Of a DNA stretch of 64,000 nucleotides, positions 50,078 through 63,363 are shown in pieces. The translations under genes were made by a program, and so were the position numbers. Source of the stretch: Flavobacterium cyclinae (GTDB taxonomy: Bacteria > Bacteroidota > Bacteroidia > Flavobacteriales > Flavobacteriaceae); NCBI RefSeq assembly GCF_021172145.1, contig NZ_CP089095.1:1488001-1552000 (forward strand), written 5' to 3'. The notes under the pieces are model-generated. The model was not told the origin of the DNA. It saw nothing but the letters and a program-made list of their open reading frames with translations, and did not search any database. How positions within the stretch are numbered: the stretch's first letter is position 1; the number at the start of each line of letters is the position of its first letter.

Positions 50078-50368
50078 ATGAATACTAAAAAGCAAACTAT
50101 TTTTCCTAAGTACAATTTAGTATTGGAAAAAATGGGAGAAAATATCAAAATTGCCCGAAAACGACGCAAGTTAACCACAATGCAAGTAGCAGAACGTGCT
50201 GCGATTTCTCGTTCTACGTTGTATTTAATAGAGTCGGGAAATCCTAGTGTGGCAATGGGAGCTTACTTTAATGTATTACGAGTATTGGGGCTTCAAGATG
50301 ATTTTTTAAAGTTAGCAGCTGATGACGAGCTAGGTAGAAGATTGCAAGATCTAGAACTTTTAAAGTAA
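50078..50368 (+). CDS. hipB: HipB-like antitoxin
   Basis: The 96-aa protein has an XRE HTH: NIKIARKRRKLTTMQVAERAAISRSTLYLIESGNPSVAMGAYFNVLRVLGL (about 22-72). HipB represses the operon and neutralises HipA. It is 6 nt upstream of hipA, with clear inverted operators at its promoter. Confidence 0.88.
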   Translation: MNTKKQTIFPKYNLVLEKMGENIKIARKRRKLTTMQVAERAAISRSTLYLIESGNPSVAMGAYFNVLRVLGLQDDFLKLAADDELGRRLQDLELLK

Positions 50369-50374
50369 TAAGAA

Positions 50375-51625
50375 ATGGCACTCAATAAAACAGATATTTA
50401 TGTATATGCGCATTGGTTGGGTATGCAAGAACCGAAACTAATTGGCGTATTGTCTGCTCAACAAGCTAAAGGAAAAAAAGCATTTAGTTTTGAATATGAT
50501 ACCGCATGGCTTAAAACCGGACAAAAGTTTTTACTAGATCCAGATATCAGTTTGTTTTCAGGTGCGCAATACCCAAATCAAAAAGATAATTTTGGTATTT
50601 TTTTAGATAGTATGCCTGATACTTGGGGAAGAACACTTATGAAACGAAGAGCAGCACAATGGGCTCGAGAAAATAATACAAAAACGCCAACGCTTTATGA
50701 TATCGATTTCCTTTTAGGAGTTTATGATGCAAGTAGGATGGGAGCATTGCGTTTTAAAACGGATCCAAATGGAGATTTTTTAGACAACAATAAAACAACT
50801 CCAACACCACCTTGGTCATCAATTAGAGAGCTTCAAGTAGCTGCTGAAAGCATAGAAGACGATAAAGACAATGATGAGGTAAAAAAATGGCTTTCTATAT
50901 TGATTGCTCCGGGTTCTTCATTAGGAGGAGCCAGGCCTAAAGCCAATATCTTAGATACAGATAAAAACTTGTGGATTGCAAAATTTCCATCAAAGTCAGA
51001 TACAATAGATAAAGCAGCTTGGGAATATTTAGCTTATGAATTAGCCATTCAAGCAGGAATCACAATGGCACCGTGTAAAATAGAAAAAATTAAGGGAAAT
51101 TACCATACTTTTTTTACTAAACGTTTTGATAGGGAAAATGGAGAACGAATCCATTTTGCCTCAGCCATGACCATGACAGGAAATAACGAAGATACAATAA
51201 AAGACAATCATCCAAGTTACTTAGAAATAGCTGAATTTATAAGTAATCATGGTGTGAACATTGAAGCGAATCTACATCAACTATGGAGGAGAATCATTTT
51301 CAATATTAGCATTTCAAACACAGATGATCATCTTAGAAATCATGGTTTTATATTAACCGATGAGGGTTGGATATTATCTCCAGCGTATGATTTAAACCCT
51401 TCCATTGATAAAGACGGCTTATCATTAAATATCGATATGGATAATAATGAATTGGATTTCGAATTAGCCAAAAGTGTGGGAGCGTATTTCAGATTAAATG
51501 AAACACAAATGAACACCATAATCGATGAAGTTACAAGTGTGGTAAGGAATTGGAAAGAAGTGGCGAATAGAATTGGAATCACAAGAAGTGAACAACAATT
51601 AATGGAAAAAGCGTTTCGTTTTTAA
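50375..51625 (+). CDS. hipA: HipA serine/threonine kinase toxin
   Basis: The 416-aa full-length HipA has the N-subdomain (LIGVLSAQQAKGKKAFSFEYDTAWL...DNFGIFLDSMPDTWGRTLMKRRA), the flexible phospho-loop APGSSLGGARPKA (near 190), catalytic NTDDHLRNHGF (near 315) and metal-binding SPAYDLNPS. HipA kinases phosphorylate aminoacyl-tRNA synthetases and cause growth arrest. It is the canonical form, unlike the split system at 102-2060. Confidence 0.9.
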   Translation: MALNKTDIYVYAHWLGMQEPKLIGVLSAQQAKGKKAFSFEYDTAWLKTGQKFLLDPDISLFSGAQYPNQKDNFGIFLDSMPDTWGRTLMKRRAAQWARENNTKTPTLYDIDFLLGVYDASRMGALRFKTDPNGDFLDNNKTTPTPPWSSIRELQVAAESIEDDKDNDEVKKWLSILIAPGSSLGGARPKANILDTDKNLWIAKFPSKSDTIDKAAWEYLAYELAIQAGITMAPCKIEKIKGNYHTFFTKRFDRENGERIHFASAMTMTGNNEDTIKDNHPSYLEIAEFISNHGVNIEANLHQLWRRIIFNISISNTDDHLRNHGFILTDEGWILSPAYDLNPSIDKDGLSLNIDMDNNELDFELAKSVGAYFRLNETQMNTIIDEVTSVVRNWKEVANRIGITRSEQQLMEKAFRF

Positions 51626-51822: not shown

Positions 51823-51838
51823 TAAGTATTTATACTGA
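51823..51838 (+). promoter_or_regulatory. TACGT-N6-ACGTA-type operator, site 1 (degenerate)
   Basis: TAAGTATTTATACTGA resembles the motif and ends 22 bp before a -7 box TAAATTTG (51861-51868), the same spacing as the four other sites. Confidence 0.45.
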
Positions 51839-51893
51839 GTTTAGTGCAAAAAATCTAAAGTAAATTTGAAAAATATATTAAACTATTTTAAAA

Positions 51894-52625
51894 ATGAAAA
51901 AACTAACTACGATTTGTTTATTGGTACTTACTTTTTCAACAGCTATTGCACAGAAGAAAAAAGTAGCTGTTGTTACATTTTATGCCAATAAAATGGTTGA
52001 ATTTAATGAATTAGGAGCCGGATTTGACTTTCTATTACAAGACATTTTGCAATTGCGTGACGATCCAAATTTTAATCTAACCCCTATTCTTAACACGTAT
52101 CACGACAATTTTTTTAATGACTATTCAAAAGAGTTTCCATTTGAGTTACTTCCTGAATCTGAGGTTTTAAGTAATACTGAATATCAAAATTTTACACCAA
52201 AGTTTGATGTGAAAAATTATGACGCCGCTAATTATTTAATGCATAGCAATTATAAATACATATATGAAGGTTTTATGGGGCAAGCAAACGAGGTTGCAAT
52301 GGCAAAAATGTTTGCAGATAAAGCAGACGGAGTAATGTTTGTATATGTCAATTTTGCATTTGAAAAGGGTTTTGGTATTGGAAGTACAATGACAATAAAA
52401 ATGAGAGCTACAACTAGAGTAGCTTTATATAATAAATCAGGTGAAAAAGTTTTTGCATTCTATGAAAACGAGCGTTCTAAGAAAACGGGTGTAATGGTTG
52501 GAGGAGTTCCAGTTGTAAAACCAGAAAAAATCCTTCCAATGTGTGAAAGTGCTTTAGAAGAATTAATGGGCGATTTAAGAAAGCGAATAGCTAAGATTGT
52601 TAAAAAATCTGAAGTTAAATTGTAA
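51894..52625 (+). CDS. Exported protein of unknown function
   Basis: The 243-aa protein has a signal peptide (LLVLTFSTAIAQKKK). The mature part reads KKVAVVTFYANKMVEFNELGAGFDFLLQDIL and later AKMFADKADGVMFVYVNFAFEKGFG, MRATTRVALYNKSGEKVFAFYENERS. It looks like a periplasmic alpha/beta protein; I do not recognise a family. A candidate operator and -7 box lie 26-71 bp upstream, so it may belong to the two-component regulon at 55383-56811. Confidence 0.6.
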   Translation: MKKLTTICLLVLTFSTAIAQKKKVAVVTFYANKMVEFNELGAGFDFLLQDILQLRDDPNFNLTPILNTYHDNFFNDYSKEFPFELLPESEVLSNTEYQNFTPKFDVKNYDAANYLMHSNYKYIYEGFMGQANEVAMAKMFADKADGVMFVYVNFAFEKGFGIGSTMTIKMRATTRVALYNKSGEKVFAFYENERSKKTGVMVGGVPVVKPEKILPMCESALEELMGDLRKRIAKIVKKSEVKL

Positions 52626-52631
52626 TAAAAA

Positions 52632-52668
52632 AAAGCCCTAAATAGTAAACTTACTTTTGGGGCTTTAT
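52632..52668. terminator. Bidirectional terminator
   Basis: Stem AAAGCCC (52632-52638) / GGGCTTT (52660-52666), extended by CCTAAA-type pairs, lies between the convergent genes ending at 52625 and 52693. Confidence 0.7.
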
Positions 52669-52692
52669 TTATGAGTGTATATTATCTAATTT

Positions 52693-53133
52693 TTATATTT
52701 TATTAAATACTATTATTCTAGCGACACCTCCACTTGCATATTTTACTTTTAATGTAGTTTGATTTAAGACTAATATTTCATTAATAGTAGTGGAACTATC
52801 AAAAGTAATACTTAGTTGATTAGTTCCTGAAAGAGACCAATTACCTGAGTTTAAAAAATTCATACAATTGGAATTAATATCGGTATCATAAATATATTCT
52901 TTAATTTCTGAACTGCTTCTAAATTCAACATAATCAAAGCCACATTGTGGTGCAGCATTATCATAACTATCTAGAACTTCTTGTCCATTTATTATTGATC
53001 CTTCTTGTGAGAATCTCCAACTACCTAAAATTAATTCATGTTGTGAAGCTGAAGAGGAGTTGTCGTCATCTTTCGAACATCCAGTAAAACTAATGCTTAA
53101 AATAGTAGCTACTAATAAAAATAATTTTTTCAT
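52693..53133 (-). CDS. Lipocalin-like lipoprotein, unknown
   Basis: The 146-aa protein (start MKKLFLLVATILSISFTGC) has a lipobox with Cys19. HELILGSWRFSQEGSIINGQEVLDSYDNAAPQCGFDYVEF and SGNWSLSGTNQLSITF resemble the lipocalin-like DUF4923/DUF5004-type lipoproteins of Bacteroidota. The longer reading starting at 53190 would precede the signal sequence and cover the promoter, so it is rejected. An operator at 53191-53206 sits upstream. Confidence 0.65.
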   Translation of the reverse strand: MKKLFLLVATILSISFTGCSKDDDNSSSASQHELILGSWRFSQEGSIINGQEVLDSYDNAAPQCGFDYVEFRSSSEIKEYIYDTDINSNCMNFLNSGNWSLSGTNQLSITFDSSTTINEILVLNQTTLKVKYASGGVARIIVFNKI

Positions 53134-53190
53134 TTTTAAAATTTTTGAATTTTGAAAGGTAAAAGTAGCTGTAAAACAACTTGAAGTCAA

Positions 53191-53206
53191 TACGTGTAAA
53201 TACGTA
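53191..53206 (-). promoter_or_regulatory. TACGT-N6-ACGTA operator, site 2
   Basis: Read on the minus strand, TACGTATTTACACGTA is followed 22 bp later by a -7-like CTACTTTT, then the lipoprotein start. It lies at the 3' edge of the neighbouring minus-strand gene. Confidence 0.65.
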
Positions 53207-53207
53207 A

Positions 53208-53873
53208 TTATTGGTTTTTATGGTGCTTAATGATTTTCCAAACACCAACGATTAATAAAGTTCTGTTAACAATATTTAGCAAAAAGTTTAGCATCCAGGA
53301 GGTGAAAAACAATTCTTTATTGGTTAAATACAGATTATTAGCGTACAAGTATAAAATTATGGTACCACCATACATGAAAAGTAAGCCTACTATGAAGTAG
53401 ACGTTAGGATTTTGTTTTCTTTCTTTTTGTATTGTTTTTCTCTCTAATTGTTTGAACCAAAGAATAGAAAAGGTAATGACTAAACATGTCGTAATGGCAT
53501 TTAAATAAGCGCTAATGTCTAAAAAGGTCTTATCATTAAGATGTTGAAGATTGTAGACAAAAGTAGCTATAAAAAGGGCACTAAAAACTATAAAAAGCGC
53601 TTTGTATTTTTTATTAAGGATGTGATAAAAGTAATATTGTAAGGTGGTTATAGCTAAGATTTTGTACACCATAAACCAGTTGGTTGCATTAATTTTCAGT
53701 AAGTAAGTTCCAAAATATTCATAAAAACTGGCAATAAATACTACCACAACATAAGGGAATATTGGATTTTTTTTATCAAATTTAGTGTTGTTTTTCCAAA
53801 TGAGTAGGAATGGAATTGTTCCTAAAATTAAGGCCGTATAAAACAGAAAGGCATATAGCGGAGACATGTACAT
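53208..53873 (-). CDS. Seven-span membrane protein, paralogue A
   Basis: The 221-aa protein has about seven hydrophobic segments. Landmarks shared with the genes at 53963 and 54668: FP-Y/F-VVVFIASFYEY near residue 45, a YKILAITTLQYYFYHIL stretch, a central short loop, and a C-terminal N-x-x-x-N-I-V-N/H-R/K-T-x-L-I-V-G-x-W-K. No family recognised; length and layout suggest a 7TM sensor module. Opposite strand to its two paralogues. Confidence 0.6.
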   Translation of the reverse strand: MYMSPLYAFLFYTALILGTIPFLLIWKNNTKFDKKNPIFPYVVVVFIASFYEYFGTYLLKINATNWFMVYKILAITTLQYYFYHILNKKYKALFIVFSALFIATFVYNLQHLNDKTFLDISAYLNAITTCLVITFSILWFKQLERKTIQKERKQNPNVYFIVGLLFMYGGTIILYLYANNLYLTNKELFFTSWMLNFLLNIVNRTLLIVGVWKIIKHHKNQ

Positions 53874-53962
53874 CTTGAAGTATTTTTTTACAAATCAACA
53901 ATGCTTAATTCAAAATTCCTAATAATTATAAATATATTTGAAAACTATAAATTAAAGATTTT

Positions 53963-54601
53963 ATGCGATTACTTATAACAATAACAGTTCTATATTCATT
54001 AATCCCTCTTTTTGTGTATTGGTTTACAAAAAGTAGATTGAATAAAGAAATTAAACCAATTTTTCCGTTCATTGTTTTGTGTTTTATAGCAGGTCTTTAC
54101 GAATTTATTTTTACAACTATTTTACGTTTTAATACGATTCCGTGGTTTTACACCTATGATTTATTAGCTTTTTTCTCCATTCAATATTTTTTTTATAATG
54201 TTCTCGATAAAAAAGTAAAGAAGTTGGTTTGGATTAGTTCTTGTTTGTATTTGATATTATTTACGTATGCAGTGATACATCATACCATAGAAAACTATTT
54301 GAATTACTTATCGTATATAACTTCATTCACAACTTTGTTGCAACTGATATACTCCATCAAGTGGTTCAAAAAAGTGTTTATGGAAACAACTTTAGTGTCT
54401 TTAGCTGATAGTCCTACATTTTATTTTGTTACAGGATTCTTGTTTTATTATTCAGGTGTAGTTGTTTTATTCTTATTGGCGCATTCAATTTATCATAATA
54501 ATAATTCTCATTTACAATATTATTGGTTAATCAACTTATTCTTCAACATTTTTCATAAAACGGTTTTAATTATTGGAATATGGAAGGCAAGAAAAAATTA
54601 A
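53963..54601 (+). CDS. Seven-span membrane protein, paralogue B
   Basis: The 212-aa protein has seven hydrophobic segments with FPFIVLCFIAGLYEFIFTTILR, TYDLLAFFSIQYFFYNVLDKK, and LFFNIFHKTVLIIGIWKARK. It is closest to paralogue C (54668). A -7 box TATATTTG (53933-53940) lies upstream, without the TACGT motif. Confidence 0.6.
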   Translation: MRLLITITVLYSLIPLFVYWFTKSRLNKEIKPIFPFIVLCFIAGLYEFIFTTILRFNTIPWFYTYDLLAFFSIQYFFYNVLDKKVKKLVWISSCLYLILFTYAVIHHTIENYLNYLSYITSFTTLLQLIYSIKWFKKVFMETTLVSLADSPTFYFVTGFLFYYSGVVVLFLLAHSIYHNNNSHLQYYWLINLFFNIFHKTVLIIGIWKARKN

Positions 54602-54667
54602 TTTTTTTCTTGTGTAATTTCAATTCTTAAAGATTATAAGTTAAACCTTAAATTAATTTAATTTTAA

Positions 54668-55315
54668 ATGCAAATAGTAATTTACATAGCACTTTTTCAA
54701 TCCTTATTGCCTTTATTATATTATGGGTGGATTAGGAAAAAAATAATTCAAGATAGTAAACCTATCTTACCTTTTATTATTTTATGTTTTATTGCTAGTT
54801 TGTATGAATTCATTTTTACCTTTACACTTTACATTAGTTCAACCATTTGGTTTTATGTATATGATTTTCTTGCTTTTTTTACTATTCAATATTTCTTTTA
54901 TTACATTTTAGAACAGAAAATTAAGAAAATAGTATGGGGAAGTTCAATTTTATACCTCTTCTTGTTTTTGTACATCGTATTGCATCATACTAGGGAAAGG
55001 TTTTTAAACTCTATATCTTTTTTAGGAGTTTTAACCACAATTATCATCATTTATTATGCTATAACATGGTTTAAGATTACGATCACCGAGAAGGCTTATT
55101 CTTCATTGACTCAAAGTTCAAACTTTTATTTTGTTTCTGGTTTCATACTTTACTATACAGGTACTATTATTTTGTTTTTAATGGCCAATACAATATATGT
55201 AAATCAGAGAGAGTTCATATCCCATTATTGGATGTTTAATATTTTTTTTAACATTGTTCACAAAACATTTTTATTGGTTGGAATTTGGAAGCTTCAAAAA
55301 CAACTGACAAAATAA
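54668..55315 (+). CDS. Seven-span membrane protein, paralogue C
   Basis: The 215-aa protein matches paralogue B through its length: LPFIILCFIASLYEFIFTFTLY, VYDFLAFFTIQYFFYYILEQK, FFNIVHKTFLLVGIWKLQK. The histidine kinase operon starts 67 nt downstream with an operator in the gap. A sensing or signalling role for the group is inference. Confidence 0.6.
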   Translation: MQIVIYIALFQSLLPLLYYGWIRKKIIQDSKPILPFIILCFIASLYEFIFTFTLYISSTIWFYVYDFLAFFTIQYFFYYILEQKIKKIVWGSSILYLFLFLYIVLHHTRERFLNSISFLGVLTTIIIIYYAITWFKITITEKAYSSLTQSSNFYFVSGFILYYTGTIILFLMANTIYVNQREFISHYWMFNIFFNIVHKTFLLVGIWKLQKQLTK

Positions 55316-55316
55316 T

Positions 55317-55332
55317 TACGTGTAATTACTTA
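55317..55332 (+). promoter_or_regulatory. TACGT-N6-ACGTA-type operator, site 3
   Basis: TACGTGTAATTACTTA begins 2 bp after the stop of the previous gene, 21 bp upstream of a -7-like CTATTTTA (55354-55361). It would make the kinase-regulator operon autoregulated. Confidence 0.6.
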
Positions 55333-55382
55333 CCTTTACTCTTCAGTTTACAACTATTTTAGCCAATTAATTTCAATTTCGA

Positions 55383-56147
55383 ATGGATGTAGTAAAAGAC
55401 ATTAAAATTGCCTTTATTTTAGGAACTGCCATAATGCTTTTTTTAGTTTTTGGTTTATTGTTTTTAGTGCTTTTTTACCAAAATCATTTTATGAAAATGA
55501 AGCGAAATGAAGCAAATCTATTGCTAAAAACAGCTCTTGAAAGTGAAAAAAATGAACGAGAACGCATTGCTATTGATTTGCATGACGGCGTTCAAGGCGA
55601 TTTAAATGCTTTGAAATTTACATTAGCAGGATTAGAAACTGGGGTATTAGATGAAAAGTTTAAAGCGCATATACAATTACTACAAAATACGTTACAACAA
55701 ACAACAGAAAATGTTAGAGTAATTAGTCAAAAGTTAATGCCACCTTTGTTAGACCAAAAAGGATTGAGACCAGCACTGGAAGTCTATTTCGAATTTTTAC
55801 AAACACATTCAGATGCAAAGCTCGATTTAAAGGGCGATCTAGATAATTTTGAGTTAAGCTCACACGAAAAATATGCCTTATTTCGTTTAATTCAAGAATT
55901 GATTCAAAACATGTTTAAACACGGACAAGTTTCAATGGTGCAATTAATGATAGAAAGTCAAACAAAAGAGCTACAAATCAAAATAACAGATAACGGTATA
56001 CCGTTTGATTTCTTCTCTACTTTTGAAGCCAATCATAGTGGTGGTCTACAAAATATAATGTCGAGAATTAAAAGTATTGGTGCAACTATGAAACAATTAT
56101 CTGATGATAAATCCAATACTTACATCATTCAATTAAAAAGAAAATAA
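55383..56147 (+). CDS. HisKA_3-type histidine kinase with one membrane span
   Basis: The 254-aa kinase has a single N-terminal membrane segment (FILGTAIMLFLVFGLLFLVLFY), no periplasmic sensor domain, then a dimerisation/phosphoacceptor helix ERERIAIDLHDGVQGDLNAL (His67) and an ATPase domain (LFRLIQELIQNMFKHGQ, ITDNGIPFD, GGLQNIMSRI). It pairs with the LuxR-type regulator 1 nt downstream. A separate sensor protein is likely; the nearby 7TM proteins are candidates. Confidence 0.9.
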   Translation: MDVVKDIKIAFILGTAIMLFLVFGLLFLVLFYQNHFMKMKRNEANLLLKTALESEKNERERIAIDLHDGVQGDLNALKFTLAGLETGVLDEKFKAHIQLLQNTLQQTTENVRVISQKLMPPLLDQKGLRPALEVYFEFLQTHSDAKLDLKGDLDNFELSSHEKYALFRLIQELIQNMFKHGQVSMVQLMIESQTKELQIKITDNGIPFDFFSTFEANHSGGLQNIMSRIKSIGATMKQLSDDKSNTYIIQLKRK

Positions 56148-56148
56148 A

Positions 56149-56811
56149 ATGTTTAAAATTGCCCTTGTTGATGATCACGAATTATTTCGTAAAAGTCTAA
56201 TTTTTGTTTTAGAACAAATAGAAACAATCGAAGTTGTTTTTGATACTAATGATGGTACTTTACTTTTACAATACTTACAAAACAATACGGTTGATTTGGT
56301 TTTATTAGACATTCAAATGCCAATTATGGACGGGTTTACGTTATGTAAAAAAATAAAACAACTAAAACCCGTTATTAAAATATTAACTGTTTCTCAATTA
56401 ACAACAAAAGAATCCATACATCAAATCTTCGAATCGGGTGCTAACGGTTTTTTCTCCAAAAATTCTTCAACGGATTCTTTTAAAGAAGCTGTTTTGAGTA
56501 TGATAGAGAAAGATTATTATTTTGATATCTCTTTGTCAGATGTAGTAAAAGAAGCAATGCTTTGGAAAGCGACACAAAATAATGATGACCAACAAATAAA
56601 CAAAGACTTACTTTCACCTAGAGAAAAAGAAATCATTTTTTGGTCAGCTAAAGGTCTAACATGTCAGCAAATTGCAGACCATCTTTTCATCAGCAAAAGA
56701 ACAGTGGAAACCCATAGAAAAACCATTATGGATAAAACCAGTTGTTTGAATTTTATTGAAGTAGTAGTTTACGGTTTAAAAGAACGTATTATCACACTTG
56801 ATGACTTGTAA
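56149..56811 (+). CDS. LuxR/NarL-type response regulator
   Basis: The 220-aa regulator has a receiver domain (VDDHELFRKSL, Asp54 in VLLDIQMPIMDG, Lys in FFSKNSS) and a C-terminal LuxR HTH: SPREKEIIFWSAKGLTCQQIADHLFISKRTVETHRKTIMDKTS. It is 1 nt after the kinase. The TACGT-N6-ACGTA sites around the locus are plausible targets, matching the size and symmetry of NarL-family sites. Confidence 0.9.
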   Translation: MFKIALVDDHELFRKSLIFVLEQIETIEVVFDTNDGTLLLQYLQNNTVDLVLLDIQMPIMDGFTLCKKIKQLKPVIKILTVSQLTTKESIHQIFESGANGFFSKNSSTDSFKEAVLSMIEKDYYFDISLSDVVKEAMLWKATQNNDDQQINKDLLSPREKEIIFWSAKGLTCQQIADHLFISKRTVETHRKTIMDKTSCLNFIEVVVYGLKERIITLDDL

Positions 56812-56823
56812 ATAATTTTATAT

Positions 56824-56839
56824 TAGGTGTTTATACGTA
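56824..56839 (+). promoter_or_regulatory. TACGT-N6-ACGTA operator, site 4
   Basis: TAGGTGTTTATACGTA, one base off the best match, ends 22 bp before TTACTTTG (56862-56869). The stretch ATACGTATTG and the box GGTTACTTTGTT are repeated at site 5 (61755). Confidence 0.7.
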
Positions 56840-56985
56840 TTGTTATATGAATTGAATTAGGTTACTTTGTTTTTATTTAGTAACTTTTGCTAATCTATCT
56901 AATAATATGGCATAAAAGTTGTAAAATTTCGCAAATAAACACATTGTGTGCTATTTTATCCAAAATCGTACAAATACCAAATTTC

Positions 56986-58683
56986 ATGAAAATCTTAATT
57001 TACATAATTACATTTTTATTTGCAACATCTTGCCATTCGCAAGAAAAAAACACGCTACAAGCAACACAAGATGATGCTTTAACCATTGGCACAACAGGTG
57101 GAATGAATGGTGGATGCAAATTTTTAGAGCAACCTGTTTATTATGTAAACGAAAATTATATAATATATCAGGATTGTAATACCCGAAAAATACTTTATGC
57201 AGATATTTCCTCTTTTGAAATAGTAAAGTATTATGGTCAATATGGAATAGCTTTGGATAAAAATGGAGTATATGTACAAGGAAATTTTGTTGCTACAGAT
57301 ACTACAGGATTTACTTTTTTAGGCATAAATGAAAAAGATTTGTTGTGGAAAACCAATACTTCGGTTTACAAAAACACAACTGTTTTACCTAAACTTAATG
57401 CGAGTGAATTTACAAGATTATCTGACCAACAGAAAAAAAGTTACAGCGGAATTTATTTTAAAGACAACTCCAATATTTATTATTTCGACAAAAAAATTGA
57501 AGGTGCTGATCTTGCAACAGCCGATTTAATATACAACGACAATCGAATGTTCTATGATAAAAATTATATGTACAAAGATGGAGAAATTGTGTTCTTGGAA
57601 GCCGAACCTTTACTTTATGTGAATAACTCCTTGAAAAAAACAGCTACAAAGGTTCTTTATCACAATAAAGTAATTTCCAATATAGATACCAAAACATTAG
57701 TAGGGCTTTCTCGACATTATGCTAAAGATAAAAACAACGTATATAGTTCTTCATTTGGTGACGATATTAAAACATTACCCATAAACAAAGCTGACTTTAA
57801 CAAATTAAAAGTTTGGGACCATACCAATTCTGCCTACATCACAGACGGAAAAAACTTATTTCGCTACAATGAAATTTTATCAAAAAATGAGTTTGACGTG
57901 GCGACCTTTGGTACTTTTGGATTTACAGATTTTGTTTATGACAAAAATGGCGTTTACACAAGACGTTATGACAAAGAATTAGATAAAGTAGTATATGATA
58001 AATTTCCCTTTAAATATACTGATGATGTAAGTAGCAAAAATTTACAAATTACAGAAGGCAGTAGCTTGTATGTTTATTATAACAATCAGGCGTATGAAGA
58101 AAGTACCAAAACACTTTATGAGAACTTAACACCTGAACAGATAGAAATTAGCAAAAACAGACCACATATACCAAATAATATGGTGCGTTTAGGTAAACTT
58201 AATAGCAAAGTTATTTTAAGAACACTTTACGACTACAAACTATCCAAAGATAATAATGCTGTTTATCATGATGGTAAAAAAACAAGTGCAGATCCAGTTA
58301 CTTTTAGAAAGCTCGACAATAATTATTACATAGACAAAGACAATGTTTACCAATACAACCGAGAAAAAGGATTACTTGTAATAAATTACATTGATGTTGA
58401 AACCACAAAATACTTTAACGGTTTTATTATGGACAAAAATTATTTATATAGTAATGGAACACGAATCATCAAGAGCTATAAGTTAGAAATTTTAGCTTCA
58501 TTTCCTGGTTATCGTTTGGGTTGTGGATTAGACGAAACACCAGGTTCTGATTTTTACTTATTTAGAAATGCTGAGGGATTTTGGTGGGTAAAAGTATCAA
58601 ATGAAATCACAATTAGGTTTTTAGGAAAAACACTGAACAAGAAGTTAAGTCCTTTATTTGAAAATTTAGAGACACCTCAATAA
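56986..58683 (+). CDS. DKNYY-repeat lipoprotein
   Basis: The 565-aa protein (start MKILIYIITFLFATSC, lipidated Cys16) contains many DKNYY-type repeats: DKNGVYV, DKNYMYKDG, DKNNVYSS, DKNGVYTR, DKDNVYQYN, DKNYLYSNG. The family is surface or periplasmic with unknown role. A longer reading from 56887 precedes the signal sequence and is rejected. It is behind operator site 4 and its stop overlaps the next start. Confidence 0.8.
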   Translation: MKILIYIITFLFATSCHSQEKNTLQATQDDALTIGTTGGMNGGCKFLEQPVYYVNENYIIYQDCNTRKILYADISSFEIVKYYGQYGIALDKNGVYVQGNFVATDTTGFTFLGINEKDLLWKTNTSVYKNTTVLPKLNASEFTRLSDQQKKSYSGIYFKDNSNIYYFDKKIEGADLATADLIYNDNRMFYDKNYMYKDGEIVFLEAEPLLYVNNSLKKTATKVLYHNKVISNIDTKTLVGLSRHYAKDKNNVYSSSFGDDIKTLPINKADFNKLKVWDHTNSAYITDGKNLFRYNEILSKNEFDVATFGTFGFTDFVYDKNGVYTRRYDKELDKVVYDKFPFKYTDDVSSKNLQITEGSSLYVYYNNQAYEESTKTLYENLTPEQIEISKNRPHIPNNMVRLGKLNSKVILRTLYDYKLSKDNNAVYHDGKKTSADPVTFRKLDNNYYIDKDNVYQYNREKGLLVINYIDVETTKYFNGFIMDKNYLYSNGTRIIKSYKLEILASFPGYRLGCGLDETPGSDFYLFRNAEGFWWVKVSNEITIRFLGKTLNKKLSPLFENLETPQ

Positions 58684-60221
58684 TGATAAAACTCCTTTAC
58701 ATAGTATTATCTCTTTTTCCTATTTTATCTTTTGGACAACAAACTTATAAAGTTACCGAAGGAGAATTGAAGTTTATTGTGCCAGGAAAAGGAATAATTA
58801 TTAAAAAAGACAATCAATTTTTTGAAATGAAATTGAATGTTCTTTTTAATAAGTCAAAGAAATCTATTGAAACAAAACTCCAACCTATTTCAGAAGAATC
58901 ATTGAAATTGTTTTGTAAAGGAAAATCTTTAGTTTCTTATTCGGATATTAAAGAAAATCATCATTTCAATGATTTACAGAAAATAAGTTTCAACTATACA
59001 TATCGTTTAAGTAATGATGATAAAAAATACGATGAATATAAATTGTACTTGATAAATAAGAATTTCTTTGCCTATTTTACAAATAAGTATGAGGACAAAA
59101 ATAAGTATACTGATATTGAAGAATACATGCCATTTATTATCATTGAATTTGAGAATAAAAAAATTATTTATACTTATGATAATGAAGAAATATTTATTAT
59201 TCCAACCAATAAATTATATAAAATAATTCATCAATACGATTCGGAAAGCAAGGAATTTAAAACTGAAAAATTAAAAATCTCTAATGAAGAAATCTATAAA
59301 TTTTCGCAACATGCATTTCATGATTTAGAAGATGAATTTTTTGTTGTTGATACATTGCCGTCAAAAAAAGTTAGGTTGAAAAACATTCATAATGAAATTT
59401 TAATTTCAGAAGCATATGATTCAATTGTATTAAGTTCGATAATTAAGTGTTTCAACAAAAATAAAATGGATTTATATAATTTATCATTTAATAAAATAAA
59501 CAAGTTTCCTGTGCAAGCTTCTAAAGGACATTTAGGAAGTATCCAAATTCTTGAAAAGAATAAATTAAAATGGATAGATTGGACAGGTAAAGAAATAAAA
59601 AAAGGTTTTTCTTACCCAATAGTTTTACTTCCTGAAGCTCCGCAACATGAGTATAAGTATGAATTGGCTATTTCCAAGTCAAATGAAAAATTCATTTTGA
59701 AAGCAAGAAATATGGATGTTTTCGGATTGGAAACTAACACAACCGAAATAGATACTTTATCTTTAACAAATGCATTTGGGATTAAGAATTTCTATTTTGA
59801 AAATAACAATTCAAAAGATACAATTTCTTCTAATCAAGAATTTTATCATTTTGATAACTTTAAAACTAGAATTACAGAAATGGTTGATTTCAGTTATAAT
59901 GTAATTTATTTTCAAAGAGATAATGGAACATTTGGAATGAGTTACTTAGGAAACTTTTATGCAAACAATGCAGATTTCAAAAAAAATATCGCATCTTCAG
60001 AATTCAATAATTTTAATGAATATCAAGAATTACAGTTTGTTGAGTTCAAGTATCCATTTTATAAGATGAAGAAAAATAATTTATTCAAGCTTTTTCCATT
60101 ACATAAAGAATTTAGATACAAAAAACTCGAAGATTTTCAAGGAAACTTTGCTCGTTTTGAATTGCCTAATGGTAAAAATGGTTGGTTGAGTAAAGAAGGA
60201 AAGGAATATTTGGATGACTAA
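58683..60221 (+). CDS. Exported protein of unknown function
   Basis: The 512-aa protein has a signal peptide (LYIVLSLFPILSFGQ). It is beta-rich with WG-like turns (NKLKWIDWTGKEIKKGF, LPNGKNGWLSKEGKEYL), reminiscent of WG-repeat proteins but too diverged to be sure. It overlaps the DKNYY gene by 1 nt and the next gene by 8 nt, so the group is one operon. Confidence 0.6.
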   Translation: MIKLLYIVLSLFPILSFGQQTYKVTEGELKFIVPGKGIIIKKDNQFFEMKLNVLFNKSKKSIETKLQPISEESLKLFCKGKSLVSYSDIKENHHFNDLQKISFNYTYRLSNDDKKYDEYKLYLINKNFFAYFTNKYEDKNKYTDIEEYMPFIIIEFENKKIIYTYDNEEIFIIPTNKLYKIIHQYDSESKEFKTEKLKISNEEIYKFSQHAFHDLEDEFFVVDTLPSKKVRLKNIHNEILISEAYDSIVLSSIIKCFNKNKMDLYNLSFNKINKFPVQASKGHLGSIQILEKNKLKWIDWTGKEIKKGFSYPIVLLPEAPQHEYKYELAISKSNEKFILKARNMDVFGLETNTTEIDTLSLTNAFGIKNFYFENNNSKDTISSNQEFYHFDNFKTRITEMVDFSYNVIYFQRDNGTFGMSYLGNFYANNADFKKNIASSEFNNFNEYQELQFVEFKYPFYKMKKNNLFKLFPLHKEFRYKKLEDFQGNFARFELPNGKNGWLSKEGKEYLDD

Positions 60222-60861
60222 ATCAAATACAAAATTTAAAATAAAAAAAGTAACAATAATTGTACTTGCTATCTTTAGTATGTCTTTTGTTAAAAGCGAA
60301 TCACCTCTGGCTGTTTCTCAGAGTAGAGCAATACTAACTGCTGATATAATTTTTGAAGGACAAGTTATAAAATACGACAATACAGAAGTAACCATCGAAA
60401 TAATAAAGCCAATTTGGAACGACTTAAAGAATAAAGCAATTTTAAAACAATCAGAATTAGTATTACCTCGAAGTAGTAAAACTCATTATTCATTGAGAGG
60501 ACAAATTCCAGATGTCAATCAAAAAGCAATTTTTGCTTTAAAATTTGATCCCAAAACCAAAAAACTGAAGCATTTTTTTTATGATTGGTATATTACAAAA
60601 ATACAATACAGAGCTACACAATATTATATTGCTGGGAAATATAGTAAAGCTGAACAACAATACATTTCATCAGAAGAAGTAATTTTAGGAATAAAAATTT
60701 TAAGAAATAGTTTTCATAAAATTGAGGAACTTTTCCCCGAACGCGCTCCAGTGAATTCAAAAGTTACATTAAAAGCAATTGAACAAGCAAAAGAGAGCAA
60801 TAACGCAGTAAAAATTTGGATAGATGATATAGAAGCCTACAATGCAGCTTTAACCGAGTAA
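60214..60861 (+). CDS. Exported protein of unknown function
   Basis: The 215-aa protein has a basic start and signal-type segment (VTIIVLAIFSMSFVKSE). SRAILTADIIFEGQVIKYDNTEVTIEIIKPIWNDLKNKAILKQ resembles small OB-like secreted domains that recur in Bacteroidota. It overlaps the upstream gene by 8 nt. Confidence 0.55.
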   Translation: MTKSNTKFKIKKVTIIVLAIFSMSFVKSESPLAVSQSRAILTADIIFEGQVIKYDNTEVTIEIIKPIWNDLKNKAILKQSELVLPRSSKTHYSLRGQIPDVNQKAIFALKFDPKTKKLKHFFYDWYITKIQYRATQYYIAGKYSKAEQQYISSEEVILGIKILRNSFHKIEELFPERAPVNSKVTLKAIEQAKESNNAVKIWIDDIEAYNAALTE

Positions 60862-60874
60862 ACACATATTTCAC

Positions 60875-61519
60875 ATGAAACAACTTCTTTTACTATCATT
60901 TTTTCTTTTTTCTATTATATCTTTTGGTCAACAAATTACAGTAAATGGAAAAGTAACCGACGGAAAAACAGGAGAACCACTTCCTGGAGCAGAAGTTCGA
61001 ATTTATAAAACCAACAAAGGTTGTAATACTGATATAGATGGAAATTATGTTTTAGAAGTTTCTTTAAATGATACTTTGGTATTTAGTTTCACGGGTATGA
61101 AATCCCAAAAAATAAAAGTAGATAAGCAAGAAATTCAGGTGAAATTATTTGAAATTGATCCGATACATGAATCATTTGATCCAGCATATTATATTCGTAG
61201 AATTAAAAAGTTGGAAGCAACAACAATGGTCACTAAAGAAGACATTGAAAACGCAAATAATCCAAAATATAAATTTAAAAAGAATGCTAAAAATAATGTT
61301 TTTGTAATTTTTGTTTCAGAATTGACTTCGAATGATTTAAACGATGAAGATTTAAAATTTGAACAAAAATATAATGTGAAATATTCTTCAATTGGTAATT
61401 ACAAAAACGATTATTTAAAAAAATACAACAAGCTAACTTTTAAACACCTTAAAAAGAAATTCAAGAAATCTTGGCTTTCAGAAATCAGAAAAGATGCGGT
61501 TGGTTTAAAGAAAGAATAA
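60875..61519 (+). CDS. Carboxypeptidase-regulatory-like domain protein
   Basis: The 214-aa protein has a signal peptide (LLLSFFLFSIISFGQ) and a CarboxypepD_reg-like domain ITVNGKVTDGKTGEPLPGAEVRIYKTNKGCNTDIDGNYVLEV...FSFTGMKSQKIKV (residues 20-90), as found at the N-terminus of SusC proteins but free-standing here. The rest is Lys-rich. It closes the exported-protein operon. Confidence 0.75.
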   Translation: MKQLLLLSFFLFSIISFGQQITVNGKVTDGKTGEPLPGAEVRIYKTNKGCNTDIDGNYVLEVSLNDTLVFSFTGMKSQKIKVDKQEIQVKLFEIDPIHESFDPAYYIRRIKKLEATTMVTKEDIENANNPKYKFKKNAKNNVFVIFVSELTSNDLNDEDLKFEQKYNVKYSSIGNYKNDYLKKYNKLTFKHLKKKFKKSWLSEIRKDAVGLKKE

Positions 61520-61754
61520 ATACAGTACACAAAAGCCATTTATATAATTTCTGGGGGTTTACCAAACTAAAACTTTCGGCTTAAAATAATCATTAATAAC
61601 AACTGGATAGTGATGGGCCTATAATCTACAACGACCCTCTTAACATAAGGTTTCTATTGAGTAGATCCTAATTGCCTCGCCCTAAAATAAGGTCATCTCT
61701 TGATGTTTTATACTACAATAGAATTCCAAAAGACGTTGTTTTACTTTTAAAATT
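61520..61754 (+). other. Gene-free stretch of atypical composition
   Basis: No reading frame of note. GTGATGGGCCTATAATCTAC, then ACGACCCTCTTAACATAAGG and CCTAATTGCCTCGCCCTA are less AT-rich than flanks and could be remnants of a lost element. Confidence 0.4.
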
Positions 61755-61770
61755 TACGTGTTTATACGTA
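61755..61770 (+). promoter_or_regulatory. TACGT-N6-ACGTA operator, site 5
   Basis: TACGTGTTTATACGTA is the cleanest site. It ends 23 bp before TTACTTTG (61794-61801), which lies 27 bp before the gene at 61828. Confidence 0.75.
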
Positions 61771-61827
61771 TTGTAAGTAATTTTTGATATTGGTTACTTT
61801 GTTATAAACAATAAATAACTATTTATC

Positions 61828-63363
61828 ATGATTAAAATTTTACCATTTGCCCTTTTATTTTCAACCCTCAATATATTTTCACAAGGAGGAAGTCTAGATA
61901 CTTCTTTTGGTACAGGAGGAAAAGTAACAACATCAATAAATTCTGGTGCTGATATTGCTTATGCTACTGTTTTACAATCTGATGGAAAAATTCTTGTTTC
62001 AGGAACTACCAATAGTAGTATTTCAGGAAAAGATTTCTTTTGTATTAGATATAATACGGATGGAACATTAGATACTTCATTTGGTACAAACGGAATTGCT
62101 ACATTTGATTTACAAGGTGGTAGTGATGATGTTGCTTATGCTATGTCACTTTTATCAGATGGTAATATTCTTTTAGCTGGTTTTTCTGATGATGGTAGTA
62201 ATAAAAATGCCGCTATTATCCGTATTACATCTAATGGAACTTTAGATACAACTTTTGGAACTGCAGGAAAAGTTTATACTGAATTTATTTCGGGTAGAGC
62301 TGATGAAATTAAAGTAATTAAAATTCACGCTTTAACAGGCAATTTAATTGTGGGCGGAACATCTTCTGCAACTTCTACAAATTCTCAAGGTGTTATTGCA
62401 AGATATACAAGCAATGGTGTTCTTGATACTAATTTTAATACCACTGGAATTGTTACCTTGCCTAATGGTTCTGGTAGTGGGACTTACTTTCATACAATTG
62501 AAGATTTAGCAGTAAAATCAAATGGTAAAATTTCAGCAGTAGGTTGGATCAATCAACAAGGTTTATCTTGGAGTGCTAATCATTACGGATGTAGATTAAA
62601 CAGTAATGGTTCCTTAGATACAACATTTTCAACGGATGGATTAATTGTAACAAATGGAGGCTTTAACGGAGATGATAAATCATTTTCAATAATTTTGAAT
62701 TCAGATGATAGTTTTTTATTTGCCGGTGGTGGTTATTTAACAGATTTGCAGTATGATTATTTTTTAGGTTTATATAATTCTTCTGGTTCTACTGCTCAAG
62801 GTAAAGCATCATTTAATTTTGCTACACTAAATAAAGATATTATTTATGGCACGGGTGTAGATAGCACAGGCAAGATTGTTATGGTCGGTTCAAGTGTTGC
62901 TTCAGTTAGTAGCTCAACTTTTGGCTTGGCTAGAGTGAATTCTGATTATACTGTAGATACTTCATTTGGAACTTCTGGTAAAGTAACAACTACTTTTGGT
63001 ACCAATACAACAAATGAGGCTTTTGATATGGCAATTCAATCGGATGATAAAATTATTGCTGTAGGTTACACAGGTAATGATATTGCAATAGCTCGATATA
63101 ATAATGCAACTTTATCAGCTAATGATTTTGATAAAAATACAATTACAATTTATCCAAATCCAGTTAAAAATACATTACATCTAGATTTATCAAATCATTC
63201 TGAAAATTTAGGAAAAGAATTTCAAATTTTTGATGCTAATGGAAGAGTTGTTTTAAAAGGTAAAATAGATGAAATTAATAAAGCTCTTGATGTTTCAAGT
63301 ATGCAAAATGGATTATATTTTATAAAAATTGGAGAAGTTTTAAGTAAGTTTGTTAAGCAATAA
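61828..63363 (+). CDS. Delta-60 repeat protein with type IX secretion tail
   Basis: The 511-aa protein has a signal peptide (LPFALLFSTLNIFSQ), six or more delta-60-type repeats (SLDTSFGTGGKVTTSI, TLDTSFGTNGIATFD, TLDTTFGTAGKVY, VLDTNFNTTGIV, VDTSFGTSGKVTTTF) forming a propeller, and a C-terminal Por_Secre_tail (ITIYPNPVKNTLHLDL...FQIFDANGRVV...MQNGLYFIKI). It is therefore exported through the type IX system. It stands alone behind operator site 5. Confidence 0.9.
   Translation: MIKILPFALLFSTLNIFSQGGSLDTSFGTGGKVTTSINSGADIAYATVLQSDGKILVSGTTNSSISGKDFFCIRYNTDGTLDTSFGTNGIATFDLQGGSDDVAYAMSLLSDGNILLAGFSDDGSNKNAAIIRITSNGTLDTTFGTAGKVYTEFISGRADEIKVIKIHALTGNLIVGGTSSATSTNSQGVIARYTSNGVLDTNFNTTGIVTLPNGSGSGTYFHTIEDLAVKSNGKISAVGWINQQGLSWSANHYGCRLNSNGSLDTTFSTDGLIVTNGGFNGDDKSFSIILNSDDSFLFAGGGYLTDLQYDYFLGLYNSSGSTAQGKASFNFATLNKDIIYGTGVDSTGKIVMVGSSVASVSSSTFGLARVNSDYTVDTSFGTSGKVTTTFGTNTTNEAFDMAIQSDDKIIAVGYTGNDIAIARYNNATLSANDFDKNTITIYPNPVKNTLHLDLSNHSENLGKEFQIFDANGRVVLKGKIDEINKALDVSSMQNGLYFIKIGEVLSKFVKQ

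Follow-up and report, generated by a model that had tools for sequence, protein, structure and literature searches.

The window analysed here is a 64,000-nucleotide stretch of the Flavobacterium cyclinae genome (C1:1488001-1552000 on a single contig of 3,017,062 bases, accession NZ_CP089095.1). Around 51823..61801 it encodes a histidine kinase and a NarL/LuxR-type response regulator together with seven-helix membrane proteins, a lipoprotein and apparently exported proteins (Table 1). Five copies of a 16-bp inverted repeat lie before genes of this region and are considered below as candidate operators of the kinase-regulator pair.

The regulator (56149-56811) matched PF00072 (1.7e-24) and PF00196 (4.1e-15), both over the curated cut-off, and its closest solved relatives were VraR and then NarL. 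The kinase (55383-56147) matched HisKA_3 with 36 bits (cut-off 24) and HATPase_c with 22.4 bits, which is under the cut-off of 26.4. The AlphaFold model of the 212-amino acid protein at 53963-54601 (mean predicted local distance difference test score 88) was interpreted as having seven membrane helices, with a break in the first; a receptor-like arrangement was found only at values that unrelated helical bundles also reached. This protein had no match in Pfam and only weak and implausible matches in NCBIfam. At an E value of 0.001 its family numbers four in the genome: three are encoded in the window and the fourth in a second module. The order of such a module is a protein of about 104 amino acids, the seven-helix membrane protein, a kinase without a recognised sensor domain and a NarL/VraR-type regulator. 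The 104-amino acid protein, the structure of which has two helices and three strands, returned no PDB match with an E value below 0.09. Homologue searches returned unnamed or hypothetical proteins, and the named relatives that carry the module were mostly Flavobacterium.

Distribution and spacing of the dyad

A preliminary description of this DNA had proposed a local regulon of five sites with the pattern TACGT-N6-ACGTA. All five were found at the coordinates given there, two of them matching this loose motif perfectly, two with one mismatch and the site at 51823 with three. When up to three mismatches were allowed, the loose motif occurred 163 times in the window compared with 174 ± 13 times in shuffles, which is background. 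As it was not enriched, the motif was tightened to TACGTRT-TT-AYACGTA, a 7-2-7 dyad, and the -7 box was added to give a composite motif (the tight 16-mer, N23 and TANNTTTG, with at most three mismatches). The shared 16-bp pattern was upheld in this form, its free six-nucleotide middle was not. The tightening drew on the window's own sites, which are thus not independent tests of it; other places in the same genome and the tests in other genomes are independent of the tightening.

A search of the 3.02-Mb genome with the tight motif at up to one mismatch revealed eight places, and none with the controls. All eight were within C1:1430496-1549770, 119 kb of the 3.02 Mb (chance about 1e-9 by a rough formula), and outside called open reading frames. 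The composite motif was found at nine places, every one of them within C1:1430465-1549801, with no control match. At up to three mismatches the tight motif was at background, with 95 places in the genome and 92 for the reversed control. Frequent occurrence at random positions had been named in the preliminary description as grounds against the regulon; the loose form is at background, whereas the tight and composite forms are confined to one stretch. Two further places with two mismatches (C1:1604571 and C1:1642251) had common flank sequence and no spaced box, and were left out as apparent copies of a repeat that has no connection with the promoters. The degenerate site at 51823 is meaningless when taken alone and draws its support only from homologues of the 243-amino acid protein that it precedes: in a close relative (genome G408) there is a site with one mismatch at L119:12339, 22 bp before TACATTTG, and at L170:13162 a site with one mismatch, 23 bp before TATATTTA.

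The sequence TAnnTTTG at -12 to -5 has been reported as the primary-sigma element of flavobacteria (PMC9723704). Its distance from the dyad was tested in 266 orientations (both strands per site, at most one mismatch) drawn from genomes and loci that are positive for the module; duplicate flanked sites were removed and homologous promoters of related genomes were kept, so that the orientations are not independent. At an offset of 23, at least five of the six letters of the box were present in 73 of the 266 orientations, 40 of them perfect, compared with 0-13 at the other offsets between 10 and 39. The constant spacing claimed earlier was therefore borne out, although its range is 22-23 bp in the window and not 21-23 bp. 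In many composite sites the dyad runs directly into TTG, which is likely to be the -33 element. An activator touching RNA polymerase at -33 would be the natural reading of this position. Pairs of sites 31-33 bp apart, about three helical turns, were often seen in genomes G379, G425, G208, G462 and G296 (e.g. L115:11359-11407 and L121:8725-8773), and one site of the pair often abuts the -33 element.

Beyond the window, the same contig has further sites that are followed at 23 bp by a -7 box (Table 1). The predicted regulon would comprise about 13 promoters and reach about 110 kb to the left of 51823..61801; its local character was supported, but it is more than twice as large as first described and lies mostly outside that interval. 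The second kinase-regulator pair (C1:1445865-1447291) is a paralogue of the central pair, and upstream of its module there is a perfect dyad at 1444783 as well as a degenerate site, recognised by eye, that precedes TACTTTTG by 23 bp. Between site 1482563 and cas9 there is a terminator-like hairpin followed by a T-run, on the other strand, which makes the link of this site to cas9 tentative. The G+C content was low, 26-31% per 10 kb, at 1.42-1.49 Mb.

Table 1. Sites, -7 boxes and genes of the locus (window positions) and of the predicted regulon elsewhere (contig positions); aa, amino acids
Feature	Position	Strand	Remark
Site TAAGTATTTATACTGA	51823..51838	+	Degenerate 7-2-7 dyad, 3 mismatches; upstream of 243-aa exported protein gene
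-7 box TAAATTTG	51861..51868	+	22 bp past site 51823
243-aa apparently exported protein, KKKVAVVTFYANKMVEF family	51894..52625	+	No Pfam match; signal peptide by eye
Lipocalin_4-domain lipoprotein	52693..53133	-	Lipoprotein signal by eye
-7 box TACTTTTA of lipocalin gene	53160..53167	-	23 bp past site 53191; composite match, 1 mismatch
Site TACGTATTTACACGTA	53191..53206	-	Perfect
Paralogue of seven-helix membrane protein	53208..53873	-	35% identity
Seven-helix membrane protein, proposed sensor partner	53963..54601	+	AlphaFold model; no Pfam match
Second copy of seven-helix membrane protein	54668..55315	+	51% identity
Site TACGTGTAATTACTTA before kinase-regulator pair	55317..55332	+	1 mismatch to loose motif, 2 to tight motif
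-7 box TATTTTAG	55355..55362	+	22 bp past site 55317
HisKA_3 histidine kinase	55383..56147	+	One N-terminal hydrophobic stretch by eye; no recognised sensor domain
NarL/LuxR-type response regulator	56149..56811	+	Receiver and GerE helix-turn-helix; proposed binder of sites
Site TAGGTGTTTATACGTA	56824..56839	+	1 mismatch to tight motif
-7 box TTACTTTG	56862..56869	+	22 bp past site 56824
DKNYY-family apparently exported protein	56986..58683	+	Opens gene run to 61519
Site TACGTGTTTATACGTA	61755..61770	+	Perfect
-7 box TTACTTTG	61794..61801	+	23 bp past site 61755; composite match, 1 mismatch
DUF5122 beta-propeller protein with type IX secretion tail	61828..63363	+	Domain search
Site	contig 1430496		Precedes 216-aa protein gene
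Site	contig 1436914		Precedes 1237-aa protein gene
Site	contig 1444354		Precedes 123-aa protein gene, then two apparently exported proteins
Second module	contig 1444878-1447291		102-aa protein, seven-helix protein, kinase, regulator
Site	contig 1455366		Precedes Amidase_2/SH3 operon
Site	contig 1471311		Precedes 140-aa protein gene; adjoins end of CRISPR array, about 76-bp period
Site	contig 1482563		334 bp before cas9
Site	contig 1487588		Precedes 42-aa peptide gene; run includes TIR-like (ThsB) and caspase-like proteins

Several neighbouring features were seen in this part of the genome. A long CRISPR array with a period of about 76 bp (L012:11324-16911 and L013:2360-2410) lies beside cas2, cas1 and cas9, of which cas1 was identified by search and cas9 and cas2 by eye; the hairpin with its T-run upstream of cas9 is possibly the end of a tracrRNA, and at its far end the array borders on a motif site. 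A conserved basic peptide of 42-46 amino acids (PGPKxIATSTGxPDKRQRDNK) is encoded by the first gene after a site both here (L013:7381-7506) and at L156:4841-4978. Immediately 5′ of site 51823, at 50078-51625 of the window, are genes for what we take to be a small XRE-type regulator and a HipA-like protein, and a like pair is near the module in genome G157 (L112:13534-15161). A trio of genes encoding proteins of 84-95, 273-295 and 203-207 amino acids, similar by eye at their N-termini, is found near the module in F. cyclinae (L012:3175-5321), G157 (L112:3557-5303), G262 and G185 (L128:13628-15816 and L129:3479-5176), and may be a piece of a mobile or accessory element.

Module and dyad in related genomes

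The same 348 genomes of the genus were scanned throughout, and the membrane protein was present at an E value of 0.001 in 49 of them. All eight genomes with at least seven tight matches encoded it (7/7 without F. cyclinae itself, p = 6.5e-7). Composite sites were present in 20 of the 49 positive genomes and in 12 of the 299 negative ones (Fisher 1.4e-11), and 79 of the 94 composite hits fell in positive genomes, with one control hit overall. Linkage was analysed in 52 loci gathered through the 104-amino acid protein alone: 23 of them carried 59 tight sites, compared with none in two Markov shuffles per locus, and all 23 also matched the membrane protein (12 overlap loci fetched earlier, 11 were new). 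All seven tight sites of genome G157 lie in C5:75-116 kb, beside its module at 71 kb.

Four promoters of the window were compared with those of the one close relative, G408. Site 53191 kept 15 of its 16 positions (C to T at the Y position) next to a diverged spacer, and site 61755 was identical next to a diverged flank. Sites 55317 and 56824 were also identical, as is nearly all of their flank, and are uninformative. Conservation upstream of orthologous genes, which the preliminary description had expected, was seen for several targets, as sites precede homologues of the 243-amino acid protein (G408 and L170), the DUF5122 protein (G408 and G157), the amidase (G313) and the proteins of 123 (G157), 1237 (L160) and 42 (L156) amino acids; the lipocalin and DKNYY genes follow sites elsewhere only in G408.

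The dyad was also compared with the recognition helix of the module regulator. At L175, L176 and L181 a helix of the usual RTVExH type is replaced by ISTKTVNAHKQNIQ or ISTRTINAHKQNIQ, and the promoter of the 104-amino acid protein carries TAGGTAA-T/A-TTACCTA followed by TTG; L175 and L176 are near-identical and were counted as one. At L179/L180 (helix ISPKTVEKHKRN) the dyad GCGGG-TTTT-CCCGC was seen by eye and was not reported by the automatic test. In this test, nine of 26 module promoters had both a perfect dyad of 7 bp and a spaced box, where about one was expected from shuffles. L181 overlaps L092 of genome G318, which also has a module of the TACGTGT type (L125), so that both types coexist. 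Distant modules with other dyads at or upstream of the promoter of the 104-amino acid protein (L174, L175, L176, L179, L181 and L192) are a possible set for work on the recognition code.

Dyads that are near-identical to those of the window (TACGTATTTATACGTA, TACGTATTAATACGTA and TACGTAATTATACGTA) were found at several promoters of nitrate-assimilation loci in five other genera of Flavobacteriaceae (L062-L066). At L065, a domain check confirmed a receiver-GerE regulator together with domains of nitrate/nitrite reductases and of transporters. These dyads are likely to belong to a separate regulon that uses the same box, presumably read by its own NarL-type regulator. Further dyads of this type, TACGTAGTTACACGTA among them, occur between curlin-repeat protein genes at L080 in genome G074, where perhaps a third regulator of the family reads a similar box.

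The genes behind the sites were surveyed in 83 first genes kept from 159 site rows (box with at least five of six letters, distance under 320 bp, product of 40 or more amino acids, one gene per N-terminus). Eight of the 83 had a type IX secretion tail, a figure that has no control set; amidase, lipocalin, FRG, SMEK, HNH, PLD-like and RteC domains were among the first 25 Pfam families of a total of 40. Neighbouring genes in G157 had Tle1-like, LCAT-like and weak EndoU matches. By these domains the targets resemble genes for exported proteins and for competition or defence, a resemblance for which no enrichment is claimed. A reading of the targets as a defence island was dropped, as PADLOC hits for first genes were in 23 families compared with 83 of 142 random control genes hitting 46 families; defence genes were not enriched in PADLOC among the first genes, since controls drawn at random from other loci matched at least as often. 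Near sites of G379 there are genes for small proteins with double-glycine-type leaders (L115:16777-16962, L116:6367-6516 and L116:650-877), which we take to resemble bacteriocin or peptide precursors.

Proposed regulation and alternatives

We consider it probable that the sites are operators of the central two-component system, shared with its paralogue, in a locally confined regulon. We propose the following mechanism. The seven-helix membrane protein would sense a signal and control the kinase, which itself lacks a recognised sensor domain, and the kinase would phosphorylate the NarL-family regulator. A dimer of the regulator would then bind TACGTRT-TT-AYACGTA, abutting the -33 element and lying 22-23 bp upstream of the -7 box TAnnTTTG, and would activate transcription through contact with RNA polymerase. 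Its targets would be its own kinase-regulator genes, autoregulation being suggested by the sites at the kinase promoter and at promoters of the 104-amino acid protein, and linked accessory genes, namely those for exported proteins and proteins with tails for the type IX secretion system (T9SS), the lipocalin lipoprotein, the amidase operon and large proteins of no known function; the TIR/caspase operon and cas9 are possible further targets. The central LuxR-type regulator had been named as the candidate in the preliminary description, and clustering, spacing, co-occurrence and linkage point to it, as do more weakly the footprints in G408 and the difference in helix and dyad. With a second paralogous pair inside the regulon, the sites could be assigned to either regulator.

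Several results weigh against this proposal. The membrane protein was missing at an E value of 0.001 from 12 of the 32 genomes with composite sites, and 16 of the 49 positive genomes had no tight match. The plain tight motif occurred at least once in 33 of the 49 positive and in 153 of the 299 negative genomes (p = 0.044), and with the dyads of the nitrate-assimilation loci it is not exclusive to the module, so that the regulator cannot be told from the motif alone. No tight site was present in 29 of the 52 linkage loci, including 15 of the 38 with a match to the membrane protein, and the module on contig L077 (G022) had no site even at three mismatches. In favour of the proposal, sites adjoin the module in 14 of 15 module loci (L112, L115, L118 and L120-L130), but the 15 loci had been picked by strong membrane-protein matches or many sites. 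Eight of the 26 module promoters had imperfect dyads only and nine had none even with 6-bp arms. The dyad would seem to change with the regulator helix in part, in a covariation weaker than first thought because L174 has a helix of the usual type (RTVENHRRRIIQK) with a different dyad (TGCGTAATATTACGCA) and because L175 and L176 count once. Finally, the sites of G379 are spread across its whole chromosome. Locality is a trait of some genomes including this one and not a rule of the mechanism; here it is perhaps due to the module and its targets sharing a variable stretch of low G+C content.

It is unlikely that the regulator acts at these sites as a repressor. Occupancy of a dyad that abuts the -33 element could block RNA polymerase, but repressor operators usually tolerate varied positions, and the spacing of 22-23 bp, fixed across genomes, and the TTG right after the dyad in many composite sites are expected of an activator that contacts polymerase. 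In G379 and G425, second sites located 33 bp upstream also fit activation. That another regulator of the NarL/LuxR family binds the sites, the local pair being just a target or neighbour, appears improbable to us, as all tight sites in this genome surround the two modules, it is the genomes with the membrane protein that are rich in the motif, and at L175/L176/L181 the dyad differs together with the helix of the module's regulator. The nitrate-assimilation loci with their own NarL-type regulator do favour this alternative, and several regulators probably read the box. The site matS organises the chromosome in the terminus region, and a similar role here was suggested by the position of the cluster near the middle of the contig and by the sampled GC skew, which flips sign between 1.67 and 1.80 Mb; this idea, very improbable given the one spacing to -7 boxes, the tie to the module in relatives and the scatter of sites over the chromosome of G379, was dropped. 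Chance matches in an AT-rich genome, to which the background level at three mismatches might point, can practically be dismissed save for site 51823 taken alone, given eight tight and nine composite places compared with no control matches, their position on one stretch and their recurrence in relatives.

Beyond regulation by the central pair, a broader reading is possible although doubtful. The module may be an undescribed receptor-kinase signalling system of the Bacteroidota. A 7TM-receptor-like protein would pass a signal from outside on to a regulator of its own, and the module would travel with or recruit an arsenal of nearby accessory genes, each with a composite promoter, so that one cue would switch the island. 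This arsenal would include T9SS-exported proteins, a peptidoglycan amidase, lipase- and nuclease-like proteins, the TIR/caspase operon and the type II Cas9, and in some lineages the regulon would be chromosome-wide, with paired sites three helical turns apart.

To our knowledge, few operators of two-component systems of Bacteroidota have been defined. Motif, promoter geometry, likely regulator and targets emerge together here and recur in many Flavobacterium genomes, which would make the regulon predictable there. If the seven-helix protein is a receptor, the system could serve to test how a kinase without a recognised sensor domain is instructed by a membrane protein, and modules with other helices and dyads would be natural pairs for the recognition rules of NarL-family regulators. 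The tie to exported and competition-type gene clusters suggests when such genes might be switched on.

Comparison with known systems

LiaFSR and VraTSR are cell-envelope stress systems in which an accessory membrane protein, a HisKA_3 kinase and a NarL-family regulator are encoded in one operon. The module has the same three-part make-up, and VraR is the closest solved regulator. The seven-helix protein, however, is not LiaF-like by sequence, has no Pfam or NCBIfam match and is not a membrane protein of the LiaF/VraT type; additionally, a protein of about 104 amino acids opens the operon in many relatives, and the phylum is a different one. In UhpABC, the sensing for a HisKA_3 kinase and its NarL-family regulator is ascribed to a separate multi-pass membrane protein, UhpC. 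That protein is homologous to transporters and has about 12 helices, whereas the protein described here has seven helices and about 212 amino acids, matches no Pfam family and was not found to be a sensor of the major facilitator superfamily type.

The nitrate-assimilation loci L062-L066 resemble the locus in their near-identical dyads at several promoters and in a receiver-GerE regulator within the locus, but differ in kinase, regulator and target genes, and the membrane protein was not found in these five genomes. NarL recognises two inverted heptamers separated by 2 bp, e.g. TACCCCTAAAGGGGTA (PMC4549865). The module regulator shares with NarL and NarP the receiver and GerE helix-turn-helix, and its putative operator shares with that NarL site the 16-bp 7-2-7 dyad, the outer TAC and the T at position 7; the middle of the heptamer is GT(A/G) here and CCC in the NarL site given in PMC4549865. 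Unlike NarL and NarP, the targets are accessory genes and not those of nitrate metabolism, and the partner kinase lacks a recognised sensor domain and is encoded beside a seven-helix membrane protein. A literature search of titles and abstract openings returned no description of the module, the motif or the confined regulon. The kind of system, a kinase and a NarL-family regulator with an accessory membrane protein, is known; the module, its motif and its confined regulon appear to be new.

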